Assembly: GCF_000381005.1 (NCBI RefSeq)
Contig: NZ_KB908385.1
Coordinates: 1-64,000 of the forward strand
Length of the DNA: 64,000 nucleotides
Origin: Selenomonas bovis DSM 23594
Lineage (GTDB): Bacteria > Bacillota > Negativicutes > Selenomonadales > Selenomonadaceae
Direction of reading: 5' to 3'
Numbering within the stretch: position 1 is the first letter of the stretch; every line of letters begins with the position of its first letter. The notes beneath the pieces were generated by a model. The model was not told the origin of the DNA, ran no database searches, and worked only from the letters and a program-made list of their open reading frames with translations. The position numbers and the translations under genes were made by a program. Shown here piece by piece: positions 33,319-43,432 of the stretch.

Positions 33319-36300
33319 TCAATAGCGCCCATACTCCTCCGCGAGCGCACGAAGCGCCTTCGCGTCGAGCGCCATGAGGTAGTCCGGCTTCAGGCACCAC
33401 TTCCAGTTGAGACCGATGGTGCCCGGCGTATTCATTCGTGCGCGGCTGTCGAGGCCGAGCAGATCCTGCATCGGCACGATGGCCAGGCGCGCGCGCGACG
33501 CGTAGGCGAAGCGGATGAGCTTCTTCGTGACGTCCTGCGGGTTTTCCTTGTCCGCGCCGATAAGCTGCGCGACGGCTGCCTGCGTCGGCTCGTTGATGTC
33601 CTTCGTGAACCAGCCGACCGTCGTGTTGTTATCGTGCGTGCCCGTGTAGATGACGCTGTTCTCCGGCGCGACAAAGCCAATGCGTCCCTTGTCATTGAGG
33701 AAGAGCGTGAAGTGAAGCACCTTCATGCCCGGGAAACCGCAGTCGTCGCGCAGCTTCTCGACCTCGTCGGTGATGATGCCGAGGTCCTCCGCCACGATGG
33801 GCAGGTCGCCGACCGCAGCGCGCACGGCATCAAAGAGCTCCTTGCCCGGCCCTTTTACCCAGCGGCCGTTGACGGCGGTCTTCGCCTTGCCGTCGATCTC
33901 CCAGAACGCTTCGAAGCCGCGGAAGTGGTCGATGCGCACGATGTCGACGAGCGAGAAGAGCTTGCGGAAGCGCGCAATCCACCAGCCGTAGCCCTCGTCC
34001 TTCATCGCCTGCCAGTTGTACTGCGGGTTGCCCCAGAGCTGGCCCGTCGCGCTGAAGTAGTCGGGCGGTACGCCCGCGACCGTCTTGGGCGTGCCGTCGA
34101 TGTTGAGGTCGAAGAGCGGCTGATGCGCCCAGACATCGGCGCTGTCCTGCGAGAGGAAGATCGGCATGTCGCCGAGGATGCGGATGCCCTTCTTGGCCGC
34201 GTAGTCGTGAAGACGCTGCCACTGCGCGTCGAAGAGGAACTGCATGTATTTCGCAAAGCCCACATGCTCCTCGAGACGCGCCGCGAGTTCTTCGAGGGCC
34301 TTCGGCTCCCTGCGCTTCACGGCCTCTGGCCATTTCGTCCAATCCTCATGCTTGAAATCGGCCTTCGCCGCGACGAAGAGCGCATAGTCGTCGAGCCACG
34401 CCGCCTCTCGCGCGCAGAACGCCTGGTATTCCGGCAGTTCCTCACCGCCCGCCTTGAGGAAACGCGCGTACGATTTCTTCAGGCACTTGTGCTTGAACGT
34501 CCAGACGCGCGTGAAGTCGACGAACGAGCCGCCGCCCTGGTAGAGCACCTTCGTCTCCGCGGCCTGGAGCCAACCCTTCTCCACGAGGTCGTCGAGGTCG
34601 ATGAGCATCGGGTTGCCCGCGAAGGCCGACGGCGACTGATAGGGCGAGTAGCCAAAGTCCACGGGGCCGAGCGGCAGGATCTGCCAGACCTTCTGCCCCG
34701 CCTCCGCGAGGAAATCGAGGAACGCATAGGCCTCCTTGCCGAGGTCGCCGATGCCGTATTTCGTCGGCAGGGAAGTCGGATGCAGGAGCACGCCCGCCGC
34801 GCGCTCGTAGCGCTGCGACTCGACCTGCTCGCGCAGCAGCATGCCGTGCAGCGGCTTCACTGTCACCGTGACCTGCCCGCGCACGACATCGTAGCGGCGC
34901 TCGGGATGGAACGCGTCGACGAAGGCGCCCTCCGCGAAGTCGCCGACATCGAGCGTCACGGTCCTTTCCTCGCTGCGGTGGCGATTGAAAATCGCGATGT
35001 AGGCATCGTTTTCCGCCTTCGCCCCGAAGACGTCATGACCGCTGCGGATGAGGCGCGCGAACGCGAGGAGATCGCCGTCGCCATAGAGCGGCAGGAGCTC
35101 GCCCGTCTGGAGCGCTGTATGCTCGTTGCGCTCCTTGATATAGCGGCGGTACCGCGACTGCACATAGGTATCGCCGTGCTCCCAGTTGTAGGGGCGGCGG
35201 TTGTAGGGATCCTTGAAGCCCTGCATCGCAATCTCGTCGCCGTAGTAGACGGAGGGAACGCCAGGATACGTCATCTGGAAAAGCACGGCCATCAAGAGGC
35301 GCGCCGTACCGAGATTATAGTGGTCGTCATCCATGTGGTAGCGCGACTGCTCGACGGCCGGCATGCCGTCGTAGAACGGTGCCTCGCCGAGGAACGTGAG
35401 CGCGCGCACGACATCGTGACTGCCGATGAGGTTCATCATCGCGTAGAAGTTTTCCTTCGGATAGTTCTCGCGCAGGCTCTCCATGCGGCGCATAGCGAGG
35501 CCGCCGTCGATGTAGCCCATGAGGAAGTCAAAGAGATGCTTGCGCAGCGGGTAGTTCATCGCAGAATCCATCTCGTGGCCGCAGAGGTACTCGCGCTGCT
35601 GCCCATAGGCGACCTTGTGCGAGGCGTCCTCCCAGACCTCGCCGATCATCACGGCGTCGGGATCCGTCGCCTTGAGCTCCTTGTAGAACGCCTGCGAGAA
35701 GGACGCGGGCAATTCGTCGATGACGTCGAGGCGCCAGCCGCTGATGCCCTCGCGCATCCAGTGGTGGAGCACGCTGTCCTCGCTGTGGATGATGAAGTCC
35801 ATGTAGGAAGGTGTCGTCTCCGTAACATCGGGGAGGGTGTTGAAATTCCACCAGCACTCGTAGTCGTTCGGAAAGTTGCGGAAGTTATACCACTCGTAGT
35901 ACGGCGAGTCCTTCGACTGGTAGGCGCCGACCGTATCGTACTGTCCCTGCCGGTTGAAATAGCGGCTGTTGCTGCCCGTATGACTGAACACGCCGTCGAG
36001 CAGGATGTGCATACCCTGCTTCTTTGCCGTATCGACAAGATGGCGGAAATCCTCGTTCGTGCCGAGGATCGGGTCGATCTTCAGATAATCGCCTGTATCG
36101 TAGTGGTGGTTGCTCTCAGACTCGAAGACCGGGTTGAGATAGATGGTGTTGATGCCGAGTTCCTTGAGATATGGCAGCTTCGACTCGATGCCCCGGAGGT
36201 TACCGCCGAAGAAATCATAGGCGACGATTTCCTTTGTATCTGGGTCCTTGTAGTAGCATGGATCGTCCTGCCAGGAGGCATGGTAGACCGCGCCGCGCTT

Positions 36301-36777
36301 CTCGATGAGCTTATCGCCTACCCGGCAGAAACGGTCGGGGAAGATCTGGTACATGACGGCGTGCTTGAACCAGTCCGGGGTCTTCGCACCCTTATCGTAG
36401 ACGGTGATCTGAAAAGACGGCGGTGCCTGATCGTAGAGCGCGCCCTCGCCGCCGAGCTGTTCCTGATTGTTCCCATAAAACTGCGTGCCCGTCGAGGTCA
36501 CGATGATGAAGTAATACCAGAGCAGGCAGCCCGTCTCCGGCATGGGAACCTTGGTCTTGTAGAACTTCTCCTCCGCCTCCATATCGGCGTCCGTCGTGAG
36601 CGGGTAGAGCTTTTCGCCCTTCCCCTCCTGCCAGAGGCGCAGCAGCACCTGGCGGATGTCCTCGCGCGTCTTGAGTCTCAGCCCCAGCTGCAGGATGCTG
36701 CCGGCCTCGACAGCCCCGATGGTGGAACGGTAATAGATATTCTGGGAATTATGCTCTGCCTGCTCTCTCTCAATCAT
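33319..36777 (-). CDS. Fusion of GH13 alpha-amylase/debranching enzyme with GH77 4-alpha-glucanotransferase
   Basis: A 1152-residue bifunctional cytosolic enzyme. Residues ~30-650 are a GH13 amylase of neopullulanase/cyclomaltodextrinase type, with an N-terminal starch-binding-like domain, nucleophile Asp in GWRLDVIDE (~351), acid/base Glu in IGEVWE (~380) and stabiliser Asp in GSHDVV (~455). From ~658 a complete GH77 (MalQ) follows, with 'LHPTSLPTKYGIGDLG', 'VRIDHFRGFEAFW' (nucleophile), 'AEDLGIIT' (acid/base) and 'TGTHDNNTT'. Together they would hydrolyse branch stubs or maltodextrins and rearrange linear glucans during glycogen turnover. ATG 36777 follows AAGGGGAGAG. A terminator-like hairpin separates it from glgA, so it may be made in lower amount. 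Confidence 0.92.
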   Translation of the reverse strand: MIEREQAEHNSQNIYYRSTIGAVEAGSILQLGLRLKTREDIRQVLLRLWQEGKGEKLYPLTTDADMEAEEKFYKTKVPMPETGCLLWYYFIIVTSTGTQFYGNNQEQLGGEGALYDQAPPSFQITVYDKGAKTPDWFKHAVMYQIFPDRFCRVGDKLIEKRGAVYHASWQDDPCYYKDPDTKEIVAYDFFGGNLRGIESKLPYLKELGINTIYLNPVFESESNHHYDTGDYLKIDPILGTNEDFRHLVDTAKKQGMHILLDGVFSHTGSNSRYFNRQGQYDTVGAYQSKDSPYYEWYNFRNFPNDYECWWNFNTLPDVTETTPSYMDFIIHSEDSVLHHWMREGISGWRLDVIDELPASFSQAFYKELKATDPDAVMIGEVWEDASHKVAYGQQREYLCGHEMDSAMNYPLRKHLFDFLMGYIDGGLAMRRMESLRENYPKENFYAMMNLIGSHDVVRALTFLGEAPFYDGMPAVEQSRYHMDDDHYNLGTARLLMAVLFQMTYPGVPSVYYGDEIAMQGFKDPYNRRPYNWEHGDTYVQSRYRRYIKERNEHTALQTGELLPLYGDGDLLAFARLIRSGHDVFGAKAENDAYIAIFNRHRSEERTVTLDVGDFAEGAFVDAFHPERRYDVVRGQVTVTVKPLHGMLLREQVESQRYERAAGVLLHPTSLPTKYGIGDLGKEAYAFLDFLAEAGQKVWQILPLGPVDFGYSPYQSPSAFAGNPMLIDLDDLVEKGWLQAAETKVLYQGGGSFVDFTRVWTFKHKCLKKSYARFLKAGGEELPEYQAFCAREAAWLDDYALFVAAKADFKHEDWTKWPEAVKRREPKALEELAARLEEHVGFAKYMQFLFDAQWQRLHDYAAKKGIRILGDMPIFLSQDSADVWAHQPLFDLNIDGTPKTVAGVPPDYFSATGQLWGNPQYNWQAMKDEGYGWWIARFRKLFSLVDIVRIDHFRGFEAFWEIDGKAKTAVNGRWVKGPGKELFDAVRAAVGDLPIVAEDLGIITDEVEKLRDDCGFPGMKVLHFTLFLNDKGRIGFVAPENSVIYTGTHDNNTTVGWFTKDINEPTQAAVAQLIGADKENPQDVTKKLIRFAYASRARLAIVPMQDLLGLDSRARMNTPGTIGLNWKWCLKPDYLMALDAKALRALAEEYGRY

Positions 36778-36843
36778 GGCTCTCTCCCCTTGTCTGGAAT
36801 GAATTTCTTCCTTCGTATCCTGGTGCAGATCATGAACTTCCAT

Positions 36844-36890: not shown

Positions 36891-38327
36891 TTACTTTGCG
36901 GTCAGTCTTTTATAGAGTGCTTCGTATTCTTTTGCCGAACGCTTCCAGCTGAAATCAGACTGTACGGCGTTGAGCTGGATCTTGTGCCAGATCTCATAGT
37001 TGCCGTAGAAGCTCAGCGCCCGCTTGAGCGCGTACATCATCTCATGGGCATTGTAGTTATCGAAAACGAACCCATTGCCCTCCTGCGTATACTTGTTGTA
37101 CTGCTGGACGGTATCCTTGAGGCCGCCCGTCTGGCGCACGACAGGAATCGTACCATAGCGCAGCGCGATGAGCTGGCCGATACCGCACGGCTCGTAGTTC
37201 GACGGCATGAGGAAGATGTCCGCACCTGCGTAGATGCGCTGCGCAAGCTCGTTGGAGAAATAGATGTTGACAGAGACCTTCTTCGGATAGCGCCATGCGA
37301 GGCCCTTGAACCAGTCCTCATAGCGCTTCTCACCGGTGCCGAGCACGACGAGCTGGATGTCCTCATGCTGGAGAATCTCATCCATCATGCGCACGACGAG
37401 GTCCATGCCCTTCGGCTCGACGAGACGCGAGACGATGGCGATGAGAGGCACCTTGCGGCGCTCGGGCAGGCCGAGCGACTTCTGCAGTTCCGTCTTGTTG
37501 TCGAGCTTGCGATCGAGACTCCCCTCGTCATACGTCTCAAAGATGTACTTGTCCGTGCGCGGATTGTAGACGTCATAGTCGATGCCGTTCACGATGCCCG
37601 AGAGATCCTGCTCGCGGCTCCGCAGCAGGCCATCGAGATGCTCGCCGAAATACGGATACTGGATCTCCTTCGCGTATGTCTTCGATACCGTCGTAACAGC
37701 ATCGGCATAGATGATGCCGCCCTTCATGAAGTTCACGGCATCGTAGAACTCGAGATCGCCGTTGTTGAAATACTTCCAATCGAGGCCGAGCACATCAGGC
37801 ATGACATCCTTCGGAAAGACGCCCTGATACTTGAGATTGTGGATGGTGTAGACGGTCTTGATGCGCTCGTAGCGCGCATCCCCCATATGCTCGAGCTTGA
37901 GAAACACATTCACGAGTCCCGCGTGCCAGTCATTCGTATGGATGACATCCGGCCAGAAATCCATCTCTGGCAAGAGGTCGAGCACCGCGCGGCTGAAGAA
38001 GGAGAAACGCTCCGCGTCGTCGTCGTAGCCGTAAAACCCTTCGCGATTGAAATATTCCTCGTTGTCGACGAAGTAATACGTCACGCCGTCGAGCTCGTAC
38101 TTGTCAAGGCCGACGTATTTCTTGCGCCAGGCCACGGGGAGCTCGCCGTCATAGACGTGCTCCATCGCGTTCCTGTACGCCTCGGGAATCTTGCCGAACT
38201 TCGGCATGATGACCCGCACATCCACGCCATCGGCCTTGAGTGCCTTCGGCAAGGAGCCTGCAACATCTGCCAGTCCCCCCGTCTTGGCAAACGGCACAGC
38301 CTCTGCTGCAACATAAAGAATCTTCAT
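36891..38327 (-). CDS. glgA: Glycogen synthase (ADP-glucose type)
   Basis: A 478-residue GT5 enzyme extending alpha-1,4-glucan from ADP-glucose. The N-terminus 'MKILYVAAEAVPFAKTGGLA' contains the KTGGL ADP-glucose motif, 'TIHNLKYQGVFP' is typical of bacterial GlgA, and the C-terminal GT-B half has 'PSNYEPCGIGQLIALRYGT' with the catalytic Glu and 'RQTGGLKDTV'. ATG at 38327 sits nine bases after AGGAGG; upstream in-frame ATGs overlap the ribosome site. It starts 14 bp after the glgB stop, so the two are translationally close. Confidence 0.96.
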   Translation of the reverse strand: MKILYVAAEAVPFAKTGGLADVAGSLPKALKADGVDVRVIMPKFGKIPEAYRNAMEHVYDGELPVAWRKKYVGLDKYELDGVTYYFVDNEEYFNREGFYGYDDDAERFSFFSRAVLDLLPEMDFWPDVIHTNDWHAGLVNVFLKLEHMGDARYERIKTVYTIHNLKYQGVFPKDVMPDVLGLDWKYFNNGDLEFYDAVNFMKGGIIYADAVTTVSKTYAKEIQYPYFGEHLDGLLRSREQDLSGIVNGIDYDVYNPRTDKYIFETYDEGSLDRKLDNKTELQKSLGLPERRKVPLIAIVSRLVEPKGMDLVVRMMDEILQHEDIQLVVLGTGEKRYEDWFKGLAWRYPKKVSVNIYFSNELAQRIYAGADIFLMPSNYEPCGIGQLIALRYGTIPVVRQTGGLKDTVQQYNKYTQEGNGFVFDNYNAHEMMYALKRALSFYGNYEIWHKIQLNAVQSDFSWKRSAKEYEALYKRLTAK

Positions 38328-38341
38328 CTCACACATCCTCC

Positions 38342-40744
38342 TCACTCATTCGCGGCCTGAGCTGCCGTGTTCCTCCTTGTCGTCCGCGTCGTGCGCTTGC
38401 GGGCAGTCTCTGTTGCTTCTGTTTGCTCACTCTTTTCCGCTTTGTCCGCCATCTTTTTCGACGCTGCGCGCGTGCGCTTCACGAGAGGCTTTTTCGCTGC
38501 CGTTTCCCCTGCGTCAGCTGCCTTCTTGTGCGTCGTACGCGTGCGCGTTTTTTTCTCTGTATCTTTTGCTGCTGCCTTTTTTGCGACAGCAGCACCGGCG
38601 GTCTTTTCCTCTGCTACCGGCTTGGCAGACTTTGTCACCGCCCGTTTCTTGGCCGTTTTCGCGGTCGTCTTAGCGCTCTTGGCTGTCTTGACAGTTCTCG
38701 TCGCCTTGGCGGACTTTGTCGTCTTGGCGGCAGTGCGGCGCTTGGGCTTTGCCGCGGCGGCAACCGTTTTTGCCTCGGATGCCTCCTTGCTCTCGCCCTT
38801 GGCCTCGACCTCCTCAGGGACAGATGCACCCCCACGGCCCGCGGCGGCCGTGCCGCGCAGGCGCAGGTAGACGGTCGCGAGCGGCGGCACCGTGAGTGCG
38901 ATGGACTGCGAGCGATTGTGCCATGGCACGTCCTCACTCGCGAGATCGCCGTTCTTCACGCCGCTGCCGCCATAGGCCTCGTCGTCACTGTTGAACACCT
39001 CGTAGTAGACGCCCTTCTTCGGCACGCCGATACGGTAGCCATGACGCACCTCCGGCGTGAAGTTGCAGACGGCGATGAGGAAGTCGTCGCCATCCTCCGC
39101 CTTGCGGATGAAGGAGATGACGCTGTTCTCATTGTCATCGGGATCAATCCACTGGAAGCCGTTCCAATCGAAATCGACCTGCCAGAGCGCCTTGTTCTCG
39201 CAGTAGAACTTGTTGAGCGCGCGGCTGTACTCGAGCATCTTCGTATGCATCGGGTATTTCTGCACGAGGTGCCAGTCGAGGCTGTCGTCGTACTTCCACT
39301 CGATGAACTGCCCGAACTCGCCGCCCATGAAGAGCAGCTTCTTGCCCGGATGCGCCATCCAGTAACCGAAAAAGGCGCGCAGGTTCGCGAACTTCTGCCA
39401 GTAGTCGCCCGGCATCTTGCCGATGAGCGAGCATTTGCCGTGCACGACCTCGTCATGCGAGAGCGGCAGCACGAAGTTCTCGCTGAACGCGTACATGAAC
39501 GAGAACGTGACCTTGTCGTGGTTCCACTTGCGGTAGATGGGATCGAGGCTCATGTACTTGAGCATATCGTTCATCCAGCCCATGTTCCACTTGTAGTTGA
39601 AGCCCATGCCGCCCATGTAGACGGGGCGGGAGATCAGCGGCCAGGCCGTCGACTCCTCCGCGATCATGAGCGCCTGCGGATGATACTTGAACACCGTCTC
39701 GTTGAGCTTCTTGATGAAGTCCATCGCCTCGAGGTTGCCCGTCTCGCCGTATTTGTTCGGCGTCCACTCGCCGTCCTTGCGGCCGTAGTTGAGGTAGAGC
39801 ATGTTCGCCACGGCGTCGATGCGCAGCCCGTCGATATGGAACTCCTCGAACCAGAAGAGCGCGTTCGAGATGAGGAAGCTCTGCACTTCCGTGCGGCCGT
39901 AGTCGAAGTTCGTCGTGCCCCACTCCCAGTTCTCCGCACGCTGCTCGTTATCCGACTCGTAGAGCGTCATGCCGTCGAAATGGCGCAGGCCCTGCTCATC
40001 CTTGCAGAAATGCCCCGGCACCCAGTCCATGATGACGCCGATGCCCGCCGCATGCGCCTTGTCGACGAGGTAGCGGAAATCGTCCGGCGTGCCGTAGCGG
40101 CTCGTCACCGCGTAGTAGCCCGTCGCCTGATAGCCCCACGAGCCGTCGAAGGGATGCTCGCAGAGCGGCATGAACTCGATGTGCGTGTAGTGCATCTGCT
40201 TGACATAGTCAACGAGCTGATCCGCGAGATCGCGGTAAGAGAGATACTCGCCGTCGAGCGTCCGCCGCCACGAGCCCGCGTGCACCTCATAAGTGAGCAT
40301 CGGTCGCTCGTAGCTGGACTCCGTCTTTTTTTCTTCCTGCCAGGCTCCATCCTGCCACGCGTAATGGTTGAGGTCGTAGAGACGCGACGCCGTGTTCGGC
40401 TTTTTCTCCGCGTAGAACCCGTAGGGATCCGCCTTCATGATGTGCGGACCGCCCCACTGTGGCTCAATGGCGTACTTGTAAATGTCGCCCTCCTGCAGTC
40501 CCTCGATGAAGACCTCCCAAATCTCGCCGTCGCCGATGCGCTGCATCGGATGGCGGCGCGTGTCCCACTCGTTGAAATCGCCGACGACGCTCACGGATTT
40601 CGCGTGCGGTGCCCATACGGCGAAGCGCACACCATCCTTGCCGTCCTGCGTCATGAAATGCGCGCCGAGCATCTCATAAGCGTGATAGTTCGTTCCCTGA
40701 TGAAAAAGATACAGGTCGAACTCACTCAAATCTGATGTCTTCAT
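38342..40744 (-). CDS. glgB: Glycogen branching enzyme with a histone-H1-like C-terminal tail
   Basis: An 800-residue GH13 enzyme making alpha-1,6 branches. Residues 1-631 are a standard short GlgB: CBM48-like N-domain ('FAVWAPHAKSVSVVGDFNEW'), barrel with nucleophile Asp310 (GLRIDAV), acid/base Glu363 (IAEEST), stabiliser Asp431 (LSHDEV), and the C-domain ending 'ATVYLRLRG'. After it comes a ~169-residue tail (38345-38851) with no Trp, Tyr or Phe, built of AK, TK and KK steps; I count about 44 Ala, 32 Lys, 28 Thr and 14 Arg. The tail is basic and disordered-looking, like histone H1 or HU-tail sequences. GGGGGAGTCCT precedes the ATG. Third of the catabolic/anabolic set, between glgP and glgA. 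Confidence 0.95.
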   Translation of the reverse strand: MKTSDLSEFDLYLFHQGTNYHAYEMLGAHFMTQDGKDGVRFAVWAPHAKSVSVVGDFNEWDTRRHPMQRIGDGEIWEVFIEGLQEGDIYKYAIEPQWGGPHIMKADPYGFYAEKKPNTASRLYDLNHYAWQDGAWQEEKKTESSYERPMLTYEVHAGSWRRTLDGEYLSYRDLADQLVDYVKQMHYTHIEFMPLCEHPFDGSWGYQATGYYAVTSRYGTPDDFRYLVDKAHAAGIGVIMDWVPGHFCKDEQGLRHFDGMTLYESDNEQRAENWEWGTTNFDYGRTEVQSFLISNALFWFEEFHIDGLRIDAVANMLYLNYGRKDGEWTPNKYGETGNLEAMDFIKKLNETVFKYHPQALMIAEESTAWPLISRPVYMGGMGFNYKWNMGWMNDMLKYMSLDPIYRKWNHDKVTFSFMYAFSENFVLPLSHDEVVHGKCSLIGKMPGDYWQKFANLRAFFGYWMAHPGKKLLFMGGEFGQFIEWKYDDSLDWHLVQKYPMHTKMLEYSRALNKFYCENKALWQVDFDWNGFQWIDPDDNENSVISFIRKAEDGDDFLIAVCNFTPEVRHGYRIGVPKKGVYYEVFNSDDEAYGGSGVKNGDLASEDVPWHNRSQSIALTVPPLATVYLRLRGTAAAGRGGASVPEEVEAKGESKEASEAKTVAAAAKPKRRTAAKTTKSAKATRTVKTAKSAKTTAKTAKKRAVTKSAKPVAEEKTAGAAVAKKAAAKDTEKKTRTRTTHKKAADAGETAAKKPLVKRTRAASKKMADKAEKSEQTEATETARKRTTRTTRRNTAAQAANE

Positions 40745-40890
40745 AGGACTCCCCCCTGCTTCCGTCCCCAGACAACGGAACATTCATCTGTCATATCATC
40801 ATACCCAAGAGCCGTCAGCCTCGGCGATACCGACAGCCAGCGGCTCCCTTGCCGCGCAGGTATCCCGCGCGGTACATCTCCTTTGGCGGC

Positions 40891-43356
40891 TCAGCCGATG
40901 ACGACCGGCTTGACCTGCCAGATCTCCTTCGCGTATTCTTCAATCGTGCGATCGGAGGAGAACCCGCCGGAATTCGCGATGTTAACAGCCGAGCTCCTGA
41001 GCCAGTGATAACGATCCTTATAGCGGCGATAGACCTCCTCATGCGCCTTCGCATACGCTCGAAAATCCTTAAGGATGAAGAACTCATCATTTTCATGTAC
41101 AAGATAGTCGAAGAGCGAGTGGAAGTCACCGTAAGTACCGTCTGTAAGCTGATCGACCACGAAGTGCACATCCGGGTCGGTATTGTACTCATCCCACGCA
41201 GAGTAGGTGCCCGTCGCGTAGTAGTTCAGGACCTCCTCCGCCTTGAGCCCGAAAATCACGCAGTTCGCATCGCCGCCAACCGCCTCGCGAATCTCGACAT
41301 TCGCGCCGTCGAGTGTGCCAAGCGTGATCGCGCCGTTCATCATGAACTTCATATTGCCCGTGCCCGAGGCCTCCTTCGATGCCGTCGAGATCTGCTCAGA
41401 GACATCGGCCGCCGGATAGACGAGCTCGCCGATGGAAACACCGAAATTCTCGATGAATACGACCTTGAGCGTCTTATTCGTCTCTGGATCGGCGTTGACC
41501 TTCGCCGCGACGGCGTTGATGAGACGGATCGTCTCCTTCGCGATGAAATAACCGGGTGCCGCCTTGCCGCCGAAGAAATACGTCGTTGGCAGCATCGTGA
41601 ACGTCTTGTCCGTCTTGAGCCTGTGGTACTGGTACATGATGTGCAGGATATTCATGAGCTGGCGCTTGTAGGAATGGATGCGCTTGACCTGGATATCGAA
41701 AATCGTATCGGGATCCACGCGAATGCCGTTGTGCTTCTCGATATAAGCGGCGAGCGCCGTCTTGCGGATTTTCTTGATTTTTTCTAATTCCGCGAGGAAC
41801 GGCTTGTTATCTACCATATCGTTCAGGATATCCATCTGCTCCGGATGGCGGTGCCAACGGTGGCTGCCGATCGTCTTGTCGATGAGCGCCGAGAGTTCCG
41901 GGTTCGCGCCCATGAGCCAGCGACGGTGCGTGATGCCGTTCGTCTTGTTGTTGAAGAGGCGTGGATTGTACTCATAGAAATCATGCAGAGTCGTCGACTT
42001 CAGGATGTCCGTATGGATCTTTGCGACGCCGTTGACACTGTGGCTGCCGACGATGGCGAGGCGCGCCATATGAACCATATCATCCTGGATGATGGAGAGC
42101 GCATGCACCTTGCCCTCGTTCTCCGGATAGCGCTCGCGCACATCGATGAGCCAGCGGCGGTTGATTTCGTCGACAATCATGTAGATACGCGGCAGCAGCG
42201 TCTTGAACATCTCGACCGGCCACTTCTCAAGAGCCTCCGGCATGATCGTGTGGTTCGTGTACGCCATCGTGTTCTTCGTGATGGCCCACGCCTCGTTCCA
42301 CTCGAGCCCCTCCTCATCGACGAGGATGCGCATGAGCTCTGCGACACAGAGCGCCGGATGGGTATCGTTGATGTGGATGGCGATCTTCTTCGCGAAATCG
42401 TGGATGTTGAGCCCCGCCTTCTTGTAATGGCGCACGATGCTCTGCACACCGGCGGAGACGAGGAAGTACTCCTGGATAAGACGCATGCGGCGCCCGTCGT
42501 AGGTGCTGTCGTCCGGATAGAGGAACTGCGTGATGGACTCGACGAACTCACGGTACTCGCTCTTCTTCTTGCGCTGCTCCTTTGTGAGCATGCCGTAATC
42601 GGAGAAATCACGATTGACCTCCGCGTTCCAGAGGCGCAACGTGTTGACCGTACTGTTATGATAGCCGACGATCGGCACATCGTAGGGCACAGCCATGACT
42701 GTGAGCGGATCCTCATAGACGACTTGAAGCGAGCCATCGTCCATCTTCTTCATGTAGGCGTTGCCGTTGAACTTGACGTCGATGGCCTTATCCGGCTTGC
42801 GATACTCCCAGGCGAAACCATTCTTGAGCCAGTTATCAGGGATCTCAACCTGGTTGCCGTCGACGATCTTCTGCTCGAAGAGGCCGTACTGGTAGCGGAT
42901 GCTGCAGCCATGTCCCGGCAGGCGGTGCGCCGCCATAGAGTCGATGAAGCAGGCCGCGAGGCGGCCGAGTCCGCCGTTGCCGAGTCCAGCATCCGGCTCC
43001 TCCTCATACGTCTCACTCAGGTCGATCTTGAGGCCTGCGAGCACATCCTCCACGGCATCCTGGATGCCGAGGTTCATGAGGTTTGACTTCAGCAGGCGGC
43101 CGAGCAGGAACTCGATGGAGAAATAGTAGACCTGCTTTTCTCCCCGCTCCATATACGCACTATTCGTCTTGATCCAATTCTCCGTAATGAACTGCTTCGC
43201 TGTCGCAGCCACGGTCTGGTAGACTTCGTTCTTGGTGAGCTCGTTGATCTCCCGCCCCCACATCACATGCGCGGCATTGATGAAACGGCGGCGGAGCGAC
43301 TCCTTGAGCGCCTCATACTCTCTATCCTTGCGAACGTCCTTTTTCTCCCTTGCCAA
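40891..43356 (-). CDS. glgP: Glycogen phosphorylase
   Basis: An 821-residue GT35 enzyme releasing glucose-1-phosphate from glycogen. The PLP Lys motif 'EASGTGNMKFMMNGA' near the C-terminus, 'GLGNGGLGRLAACFIDS' and 'IHINDTHPAL' are intact. I place the start at the TTG 43356 (giving AREKKDVRKDREYEAL after Met), because GGGGAGTG lies ~9 bases before it and the length then equals the family norm; the frame stays open further upstream but would add hydrophobic, non-conserved residues. It follows glgD by 76 bp; that spacer holds a CCGCTGGGAG/CTCCTGGCGG hairpin. Confidence 0.95.
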   Translation of the reverse strand: MAREKKDVRKDREYEALKESLRRRFINAAHVMWGREINELTKNEVYQTVAATAKQFITENWIKTNSAYMERGEKQVYYFSIEFLLGRLLKSNLMNLGIQDAVEDVLAGLKIDLSETYEEEPDAGLGNGGLGRLAACFIDSMAAHRLPGHGCSIRYQYGLFEQKIVDGNQVEIPDNWLKNGFAWEYRKPDKAIDVKFNGNAYMKKMDDGSLQVVYEDPLTVMAVPYDVPIVGYHNSTVNTLRLWNAEVNRDFSDYGMLTKEQRKKKSEYREFVESITQFLYPDDSTYDGRRMRLIQEYFLVSAGVQSIVRHYKKAGLNIHDFAKKIAIHINDTHPALCVAELMRILVDEEGLEWNEAWAITKNTMAYTNHTIMPEALEKWPVEMFKTLLPRIYMIVDEINRRWLIDVRERYPENEGKVHALSIIQDDMVHMARLAIVGSHSVNGVAKIHTDILKSTTLHDFYEYNPRLFNNKTNGITHRRWLMGANPELSALIDKTIGSHRWHRHPEQMDILNDMVDNKPFLAELEKIKKIRKTALAAYIEKHNGIRVDPDTIFDIQVKRIHSYKRQLMNILHIMYQYHRLKTDKTFTMLPTTYFFGGKAAPGYFIAKETIRLINAVAAKVNADPETNKTLKVVFIENFGVSIGELVYPAADVSEQISTASKEASGTGNMKFMMNGAITLGTLDGANVEIREAVGGDANCVIFGLKAEEVLNYYATGTYSAWDEYNTDPDVHFVVDQLTDGTYGDFHSLFDYLVHENDEFFILKDFRAYAKAHEEVYRRYKDRYHWLRSSAVNIANSGGFSSDRTIEEYAKEIWQVKPVVIG

Positions 43357-43432
43357 ATGAAACACTCCCCACTTGCTGATACAAAAAACGTAGAAGACCG
43401 CCAGGAGCCATACCTCCCAGCGGCCCATGTCT

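Follow-up and report, generated by a model that had tools for sequence, protein, structure and literature searches.

The glycogen branching enzyme (GlgB) of Selenomonas bovis DSM 23594 continues in frame beyond its normal end into a long extension that is best explained, from its composition and predicted disorder, as an intrinsically disordered polycation of the histone H1 type joined to an enzyme that sits on glucan. Comparisons across genomes show that the tail is conserved in composition, is under selection, and recurs on GlgB and on glycogen synthase (GlgA) of near and remote anaerobes, but not on the glycogen phosphorylases (GlgP) tested. We propose, giving the idea just short of an even chance, that the GlgB tail binds nucleic acid and would tether growing glycogen to the nucleoid, in the manner of PhaF, PhaM, and AlgP. 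The stretch of DNA analyzed (hereafter, the window) comprises the first 64,000 nucleotides of contig NZ_KB908385.1 of assembly GCF_000381005.1.

The glycogen operon and the GlgB tail

On the minus strand of the window, the glycogen operon has the order glgP, glgB, glgA, and a large ORF (33319-36843), the presumed glgP and glgA being named from their sequences. The large ORF (minus strand, 1174 residues) presumably joins a GH13 enzyme of the amylase/pullulanase type to a MalQ-type glucanotransferase, and frames of about 1150-1190 codons are also found near glgB in several relatives. The features relevant to the tail are as follows.

40891..43428, minus: glgP, glycogen phosphorylase, no tail (ORF)
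38342..40783, minus: glgB, glycogen branching enzyme (ORF, 813 codons counted from the first ATG)
40742-40744, minus: ATG, probable true start of glgB, inferred from alignment of relatives
40418..40669, minus: CBM48 (glucan-binding) domain, residues 39-122 (Pfam PF02922, E = 2.4e-24)
38858..39151, minus: Alpha-amylase_C beta domain, residues 545-642, the normal GlgB end (Pfam PF02806, E = 4.2e-26)
38783..38857, minus: near-neutral linker, the first 25 tail residues (the first 20-mer with net charge of at least +5 starts at tail residue 26)
38345..38782, minus: polycationic, Lys/Ala/Thr/Arg-rich tail, predicted to be disordered (composition, charge per 20 residues, AlphaFold2)
38336..38343, minus: GAGGAGGA, Shine-Dalgarno-like sequence of glgA, overlapping the glgB stop codon (read from the sequence)
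36891..38345, minus: glgA, glycogen synthase, no tail (ORF; likely ATG at 38325-38327)

The start that is conserved in relatives (Met at 40744, MKTSDLSEF...) is more likely to be used than the first ATG. At the other end of the gene, the stop codon TGA (38342-38344) overlaps GAGGAGGA, which precedes the glgA ATG (38325-38327).

By curated models GlgB is a branching enzyme (GH13), with NCBIfam matches spanning the whole core (PRK05402, 955 bits; PRK12313, 945 bits; cut-offs 741 and 577, respectively) and a Pfam domain set of CBM48, amylase, and Alpha-amylase_C; glucan binding is established for CBM48 and for the branching-enzyme family, both of which are represented in the protein. The core is shared in full, from CBM48 to Alpha-amylase_C, with ordinary short-form GlgB (PRK12313/PRK05402), but these two best models stop at residue 641-643, whereas the S. 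bovis protein runs on in frame for 171 residues after ...ATVYLRL. Ala (25.7%), Lys (18.7%), Thr (16.4%), and Arg (8.8%) make up 70% of this tail, which also contains 8.8% Glu and no Phe, Trp, or Tyr. The preliminary description of this locus had reported a tail of 169 residues with about 70% Ala, Lys, Thr, and Arg and no aromatic residues, figures that we reproduced (171 residues by our recount from ...ATVYLRL). The tail carries a net charge of +29 (pI 10.75), compared with -31 (pI 5.18) for the core, and past its first 25 residues the charge per 20 residues is positive overall but weaker in two stretches.

An AlphaFold2 model was built from a 14-sequence alignment; its catalytic part is poor (mean pLDDT 48), and it serves only to contrast the C-terminal beta domain with the tail. 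From model residue 641 of 799 the tail is predicted to be all coil with pLDDT of 21-29 per ten-residue block, compared with 84-92 for the beta domain (model residues 551-630). Among 54 ORFs of at least 100 codons that a greedy script extracted from the window, some of which may not be genes, GlgB stands apart, with 70% Ala, Lys, Thr, and Arg (AKTR) in its last 100 residues against 39% for the runner-up and a median of 27%. The tail had no match in Pfam or NCBIfam.

Distribution in Selenomonadaceae

We searched for GlgB in 60 relatives, 56 of which matched at E ≤ 0.001 (in some cases the sole hits were other enzymes of the amylase type), and in 136 family genomes that were at least 85% complete, 128 of which matched at 1e-150. 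Tails were read at 131 loci from 29 genera, comprising these 128 and three less complete genomes. A tail of at least 60 residues was present at 73 of the 131 loci and in 18 of the 29 genera; all 73 were net positive, 69 of them at +10 or more. Tails of 20-59 residues were found at a further 17 loci, two of which run off contigs, and 41 loci had fewer than 20 extra residues (29 in genus g13 and six in g7), so that a genome can have glycogen genes without the tail. A recount in which every frame was ended at its stop codon gave the same GlgB figures, both here and in the Clostridia described below. Genus g13, with 29 of its 30 loci untailed, offers a natural contrast to tailed relatives.

All seven genomes of the window's own genus (g1) are tailed, with 106-175 residues; the similar tails of the six congeners bear out the preliminary description in treating the extension as real. 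Tailed relatives known by name include Mitsuokella sp. oral taxon 131, Selenomonas artemidis, and Anaerovibrio (L051, L053, L055, and L056), and the locus labelled Selenomonas ruminantium (L061) has a tail of 45 residues with a net charge of only +1. Tail length and sequence vary widely among neighboring loci. Tail length is not explained by GC content among family loci (Spearman 0.12, p = 0.18), and more acidic cores go with more basic tails (Spearman -0.52 between core and tail net charge, 127 family loci), a correlation that ignores descent.

Selection and specificity

The median dN/dS was 0.20 for the tail and 0.03 for the core in 77 usable pairs, drawn from 99 within-genus pairs with core dS of 0.02-0.9 and defined by gaps below 25% and tail dS above 0.05. 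The tail ratio leans low because protein alignment of low-complexity sequence maximizes identity. Where gaps were at most 5% and tail dS exceeded 0.05 (among the 45 pairs listed), tail dN/dS ranged from 0.05 to 0.51. Judged by these ratios, the tail is evolving quickly yet under selection. In one pair of genus g22 (L178 and L179), synonymous divergence was 0.50 in the tail compared with 0.027 in the core, and these tails seem to have been exchanged or shuffled through recombination between repeats.

Neither of the flanking glycogen genes is extended in the family. None of 127 family loci (of the 131) had a GlgP extension of 30 residues or more, the largest being 16, and GlgA ran at most five residues past the end of the window's GlgA at 30 of 30 loci, the window's included. 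We considered whether such tails are a general habit of the proteome, an idea that family GlgP and GlgA and the other ORFs of the window (the next at 39% AKTR) do not support.

Across the S. bovis genome, a codon pattern encoding [AT]K[AT][AT]K matched 26 times, as often as its reversed control (26), and the sole two hits less than 1 kb apart lie within the GlgB tail. The 20 of these 26 sites that were read revealed, besides GlgB, three further K/A-rich frames, and GlgB therefore need not be the sole protein of this kind. In the first (L429, G000:C2:6740-6754, minus), a K/A-rich stretch with 65% AKTR and net +16 lies in the same frame just before KKTLVVVESPAKAKTIEK, which we take to be the start of DNA topoisomerase I (TopA), so that this TopA may carry an H1-like N-terminal extension. 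The second (L427, G000:C1:256352-256366, minus) is a presumed ClpB ending in an A/K/G-rich tail (48% AKTR, net +6), and the third (L431, G000:C2:174994-175008, minus) is a candidate frame of 110 codons near the pattern hit (77% AKTR, net +19). A search of the genome with the GlgB tail found only the tail itself, HMMER composition filters weakening the search.

Tails on GlgB and GlgA beyond the family

In a first draw of other Negativicutes families, all 15 GlgB loci had at most 20 extra residues (G057, with a frame of 832 codons, was left out). Among loci picked later, L379, from another family, has a GlgB tail of 74 residues with net +24, and most loci of family f15 have basic GlgB tails of 18-68 residues.

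A class-wide draw around genome G162 comprised 147 genomes, which we infer to be Clostridia, 97 of them with GlgB at 1e-180; 100 GlgB copies were read after one truncated match (G215) was dropped. At least 30 extra residues were found in 16 copies, 12 of which had net charges of +8 or more, and the other 84 fell below 30. Without the two copies of G162, which was chosen because it is tailed, 14 of 98 copies were tailed, 11 of them strongly basic. Five of six genomes reached via tailed Clostridial loci also encode a second GlgB-like enzyme, 38-44% identical, for which the match stops at or before residue 647 in a frame of 605-666 codons. Many Ruminococcus- and Oscillospiraceae-type records were tailed among the best 80 of 589 loci retrieved with a query that contained the tail. 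On a FastTree phylogeny of 238 rows, with the tailed state defined as at least 30 residues and net charge of at least +8, tail state changed at least 20 times, 13 times within the family and seven times outside it, gains and losses being inseparable.

Of 200 genomes of the window's class that were searched for GlgA, 130 matched, and 20 loci were taken for their long frames or for kinship to such loci. At 14 of 15 loci of family f15, GlgA is extended by 65-222 residues, the second half of the extension being basic (that of L371 runs off its contig), and at L377 it has no extension; the charge of the whole tail is often near zero because its first half is acidic. A Succiniclasticum locus (L067) has the same GlgA tail as the f15 loci, and L378-L382 have no basic GlgA tail. 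Seven loci, all of genus g76, end GlgA in the AT-hook-like KKRGRKPG[ST]K, and RGRKPG occurred seven times in the 24 GlgA loci tested compared with none in 500 shuffles, all in that one genus.

H1-like GlgA tails of 75-182 residues were also found in nine of 12 Clostridial genomes, which had been chosen from 112 with GlgA for frames of at least 577 codons. Four genomes (G208, G286, G241, and G217) combine a tailed GlgA with a clear basic GlgB tail and a fifth (G305) with a weaker one (net +5). The best-scoring 30 Clostridial GlgA loci had no extension longer than six residues, L334, L335, L388, and L406 had no GlgA tail when the frame was ended at its stop codon, and the GlgA frame of L415 has only 494 codons. 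The H1-like GlgA tails sit in L363-L376, of another Negativicutes family, and among L413-L423, of some Clostridia.

AT-hook-like and histone motifs

The AT-hook core RGRP occurred 13 times in 11 of the 73 long family tails (genera g11, g23, g26, g17, and g22), compared with a mean of 0.1 and a maximum of 2 in 300 shuffles; these counts are not independent because sequences share descent within genera. RGRP always stood in the basic setting [KR]RGRP[KRP], in several cases followed by MTEEEKAAAKAKREA-like sequence. AT-hook-like motifs favor the DNA minor groove. RGRP is absent from the window's own tail, which therefore lacks the AT-hook signature of this core with basic flanks, and no Pfam AT-hook match was reported in the tails scanned. 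HC2 (PF07382), a chlamydial histone H1-like nucleoprotein, resembles the GlgB tail in composition. A AAKKPAAKKAAPAKK-like tail on a Clostridial GlgB (L326) matched the HC2 model at E = 2.4e-5, at 25 bits below the curated cut-off of 40, and the window's tail had no match to it.

A possible tether between glycogen and the nucleoid

Histone-like tails position storage granules of other polymers, as described in excerpts of the articles cited here. PhaM of R. eutropha and PhaF of P. putida sit on the polymer with their N-terminal part and bind DNA with a histone-like C-terminal part, placing PHB granules along the nucleoid (PMC13052382). Whereas these are granule-associated proteins, the tailed GlgB is the polymer-building enzyme itself, and the phasin model TIGR01837 had no match in the S. 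bovis genome. In Pseudomonas aeruginosa, the KPAA tail of AlgP is needed for the spacing of polyphosphate granules (PMC9239181). AlgP resembles GlgB in joining an H1-like, Lys/Ala-rich disordered C-terminal tail to a storage granule, but has KPAA tandem repeats, a different N-terminal domain, and another polymer; DNA binding is reported for peptides derived from the AlgP tail. By its composition, low pLDDT, and predicted coil, the GlgB tail is of the type found on these three tethers. E. coli cells accumulate their glycogen at the old pole, and this glycogen displaces the nucleoid, a shift that accompanies asymmetric division (PMC12706056, in excerpt).

A polycation that is present on glycogen-building enzymes and missing from the phosphorylase tested fits a growing particle attached to a polyanion, and because of this fit, the PhaM, PhaF, and AlgP precedents, and the polar glycogen of E. 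coli, we regard nucleoid tethering as the most likely of the readings considered. In this mechanism, the body of GlgB (CBM48, catalytic domain, and C-terminal beta domain) would hold the growing glycogen particle while the tail gripped nucleic acid, most likely the nucleoid, by many weak contacts of Lys and Arg with phosphate, aided in some genera by AT-hook-like motifs. Glycogen particles would then be kept on the nucleoid or spread along it, and daughter cells would share them rather than accumulating them at a pole. We infer DNA binding, tethering, and partitioning from these comparisons. Tethering sits less easily with the lack of RGRP and Pfam matches in the window's tail, with the restriction of RGRP to just 11 of 73 family tails, and with the absence of a tail (fewer than 20 residues) at 41 of 131 family loci and its shortness (below 30) in 84 of 100 Clostridial copies. 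Of the functions raised in the preliminary description, nucleoid tethering is the best supported, by the tails of known tethers, the AT-hook-like motifs of relatives, and the tails of GlgA, and polyphosphate as an obligatory partner is disfavored.

Taken more broadly, at least two bacterial classes may have repeatedly fused H1-like DNA-binding tails to glycogen-building enzymes, so that glycogen would have a system of its own for nucleoid tethering and partitioning, as PHA has in PhaF and PhaM and polyphosphate in AlgP. In Selenomonadaceae the tail would be borne by GlgB, in another Negativicutes family mainly by GlgA, and in Clostridia by one of the two or by both. We put this joint reading forward tentatively, as a possibility that falls appreciably short of an even chance.

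Alternative explanations

The tail might instead bind RNA, ribosomes, or polyanions generally, so that glycogen-making enzymes would form condensates or be crowded together without nucleoid tethering. Composition alone does not tell whether the partner is DNA, RNA, or another polyanion, tails of Lys, Ala, and Thr being polycations without specificity, and the AT-hook core is confined to 11 of the 73 family tails. Where AT-hook-like motifs are present, however, they point to the DNA minor groove, as, more weakly, does to DNA the K/A-rich stretch before the putative topoisomerase I, a DNA enzyme of the same genome. We consider this explanation unlikely, though worth keeping in mind.

It is improbable, in our estimation, that the tail serves as a glue or colloid stabilizer, cross-linking or charging glycogen beta-particles (e.g., into alpha-particle rosettes) or gathering acidic glycogen enzymes. 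S. ruminantium is listed as a glycogen storer (PMC10395257, a review, in excerpt), and glycogen alpha-particles are reported for it in part of a second review (PMC8116748); such a glue would explain them equally well, as it would the correlation of acidic cores with basic tails (Spearman -0.52, 127 loci), which ignores descent. However, the S. ruminantium-labelled locus L061 has a 45-residue tail with a net charge of no more than +1, and charge balance alone leaves the AT-hook-like motifs unexplained.

Equally improbable is drift, in which the 3' end of glgB would grow by low-complexity repeats of Lys, Ala, and Thr codons that have no function and are simply tolerated. This would suit the wide differences in tail length and sequence between neighbors, the synonymous divergence that can exceed that of the core many-fold (0.50 vs 0.027 in L178/L179), and the one whole genus without a tail, but it is at odds with dN/dS well below 1, near-gapless pairs included, with positive charge kept in 73 of 73 long family tails, with family GlgP and GlgA that remain untailed, and with the recurrence of tails in distant lineages.

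Other proteins bind polyphosphate through Lys-rich tails, and the S. bovis genome itself encodes polyphosphate kinase PPK1. PPK1 was found in 49 of the 136 family genomes; it was missing from 41 of the 67 with a long basic tail (at least 60 residues, net charge of at least +10), among them all 14 genomes of genus g9 and 17 of the 18 of g17. PPK2, present in five of the 136 genomes, always accompanied PPK1. Polyphosphate is thus not required, and, although the tail may bind it, the partner suggested in the preliminary description is very improbable as an obligatory one.

The same description had named absence of the tail from close relatives and a frameshift as sequence-level grounds for rejecting it; both were looked for and neither was found, and because six of six congeners searched and 18 genera carry the tail and the glgB stop codon is placed in the ribosome-binding site of glgA, the chance of an assembly error or frameshift in the S. 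bovis genome is negligible.

Implications

Among the matches listed in the open-licence literature, we found no account of GlgB or GlgA with a tail that is Lys-rich or histone-like, so that for glycogen enzymes the preliminary description was right to name no precedent; for the principle there are precedents, PhaF, PhaM, and AlgP having such tails on other storage granules. In a 2025 review of how organelles are positioned, the table covers carboxysomes, magnetosomes, PHB, and polyphosphate granules, and the text lacks the word glycogen (PMC13052382); the words "histone", "disordered", and "Selenomonas" are absent from the excerpted text of a 2024 review of prokaryotic alpha-glucan enzymes (PMC11046441). 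If nucleoid tethering is true, DNA-coupled glycogen synthesis would be a way round nucleoid displacement of the E. coli type, evolved several times, and the tail would provide a ready-made module to place glycogen in engineered cells.
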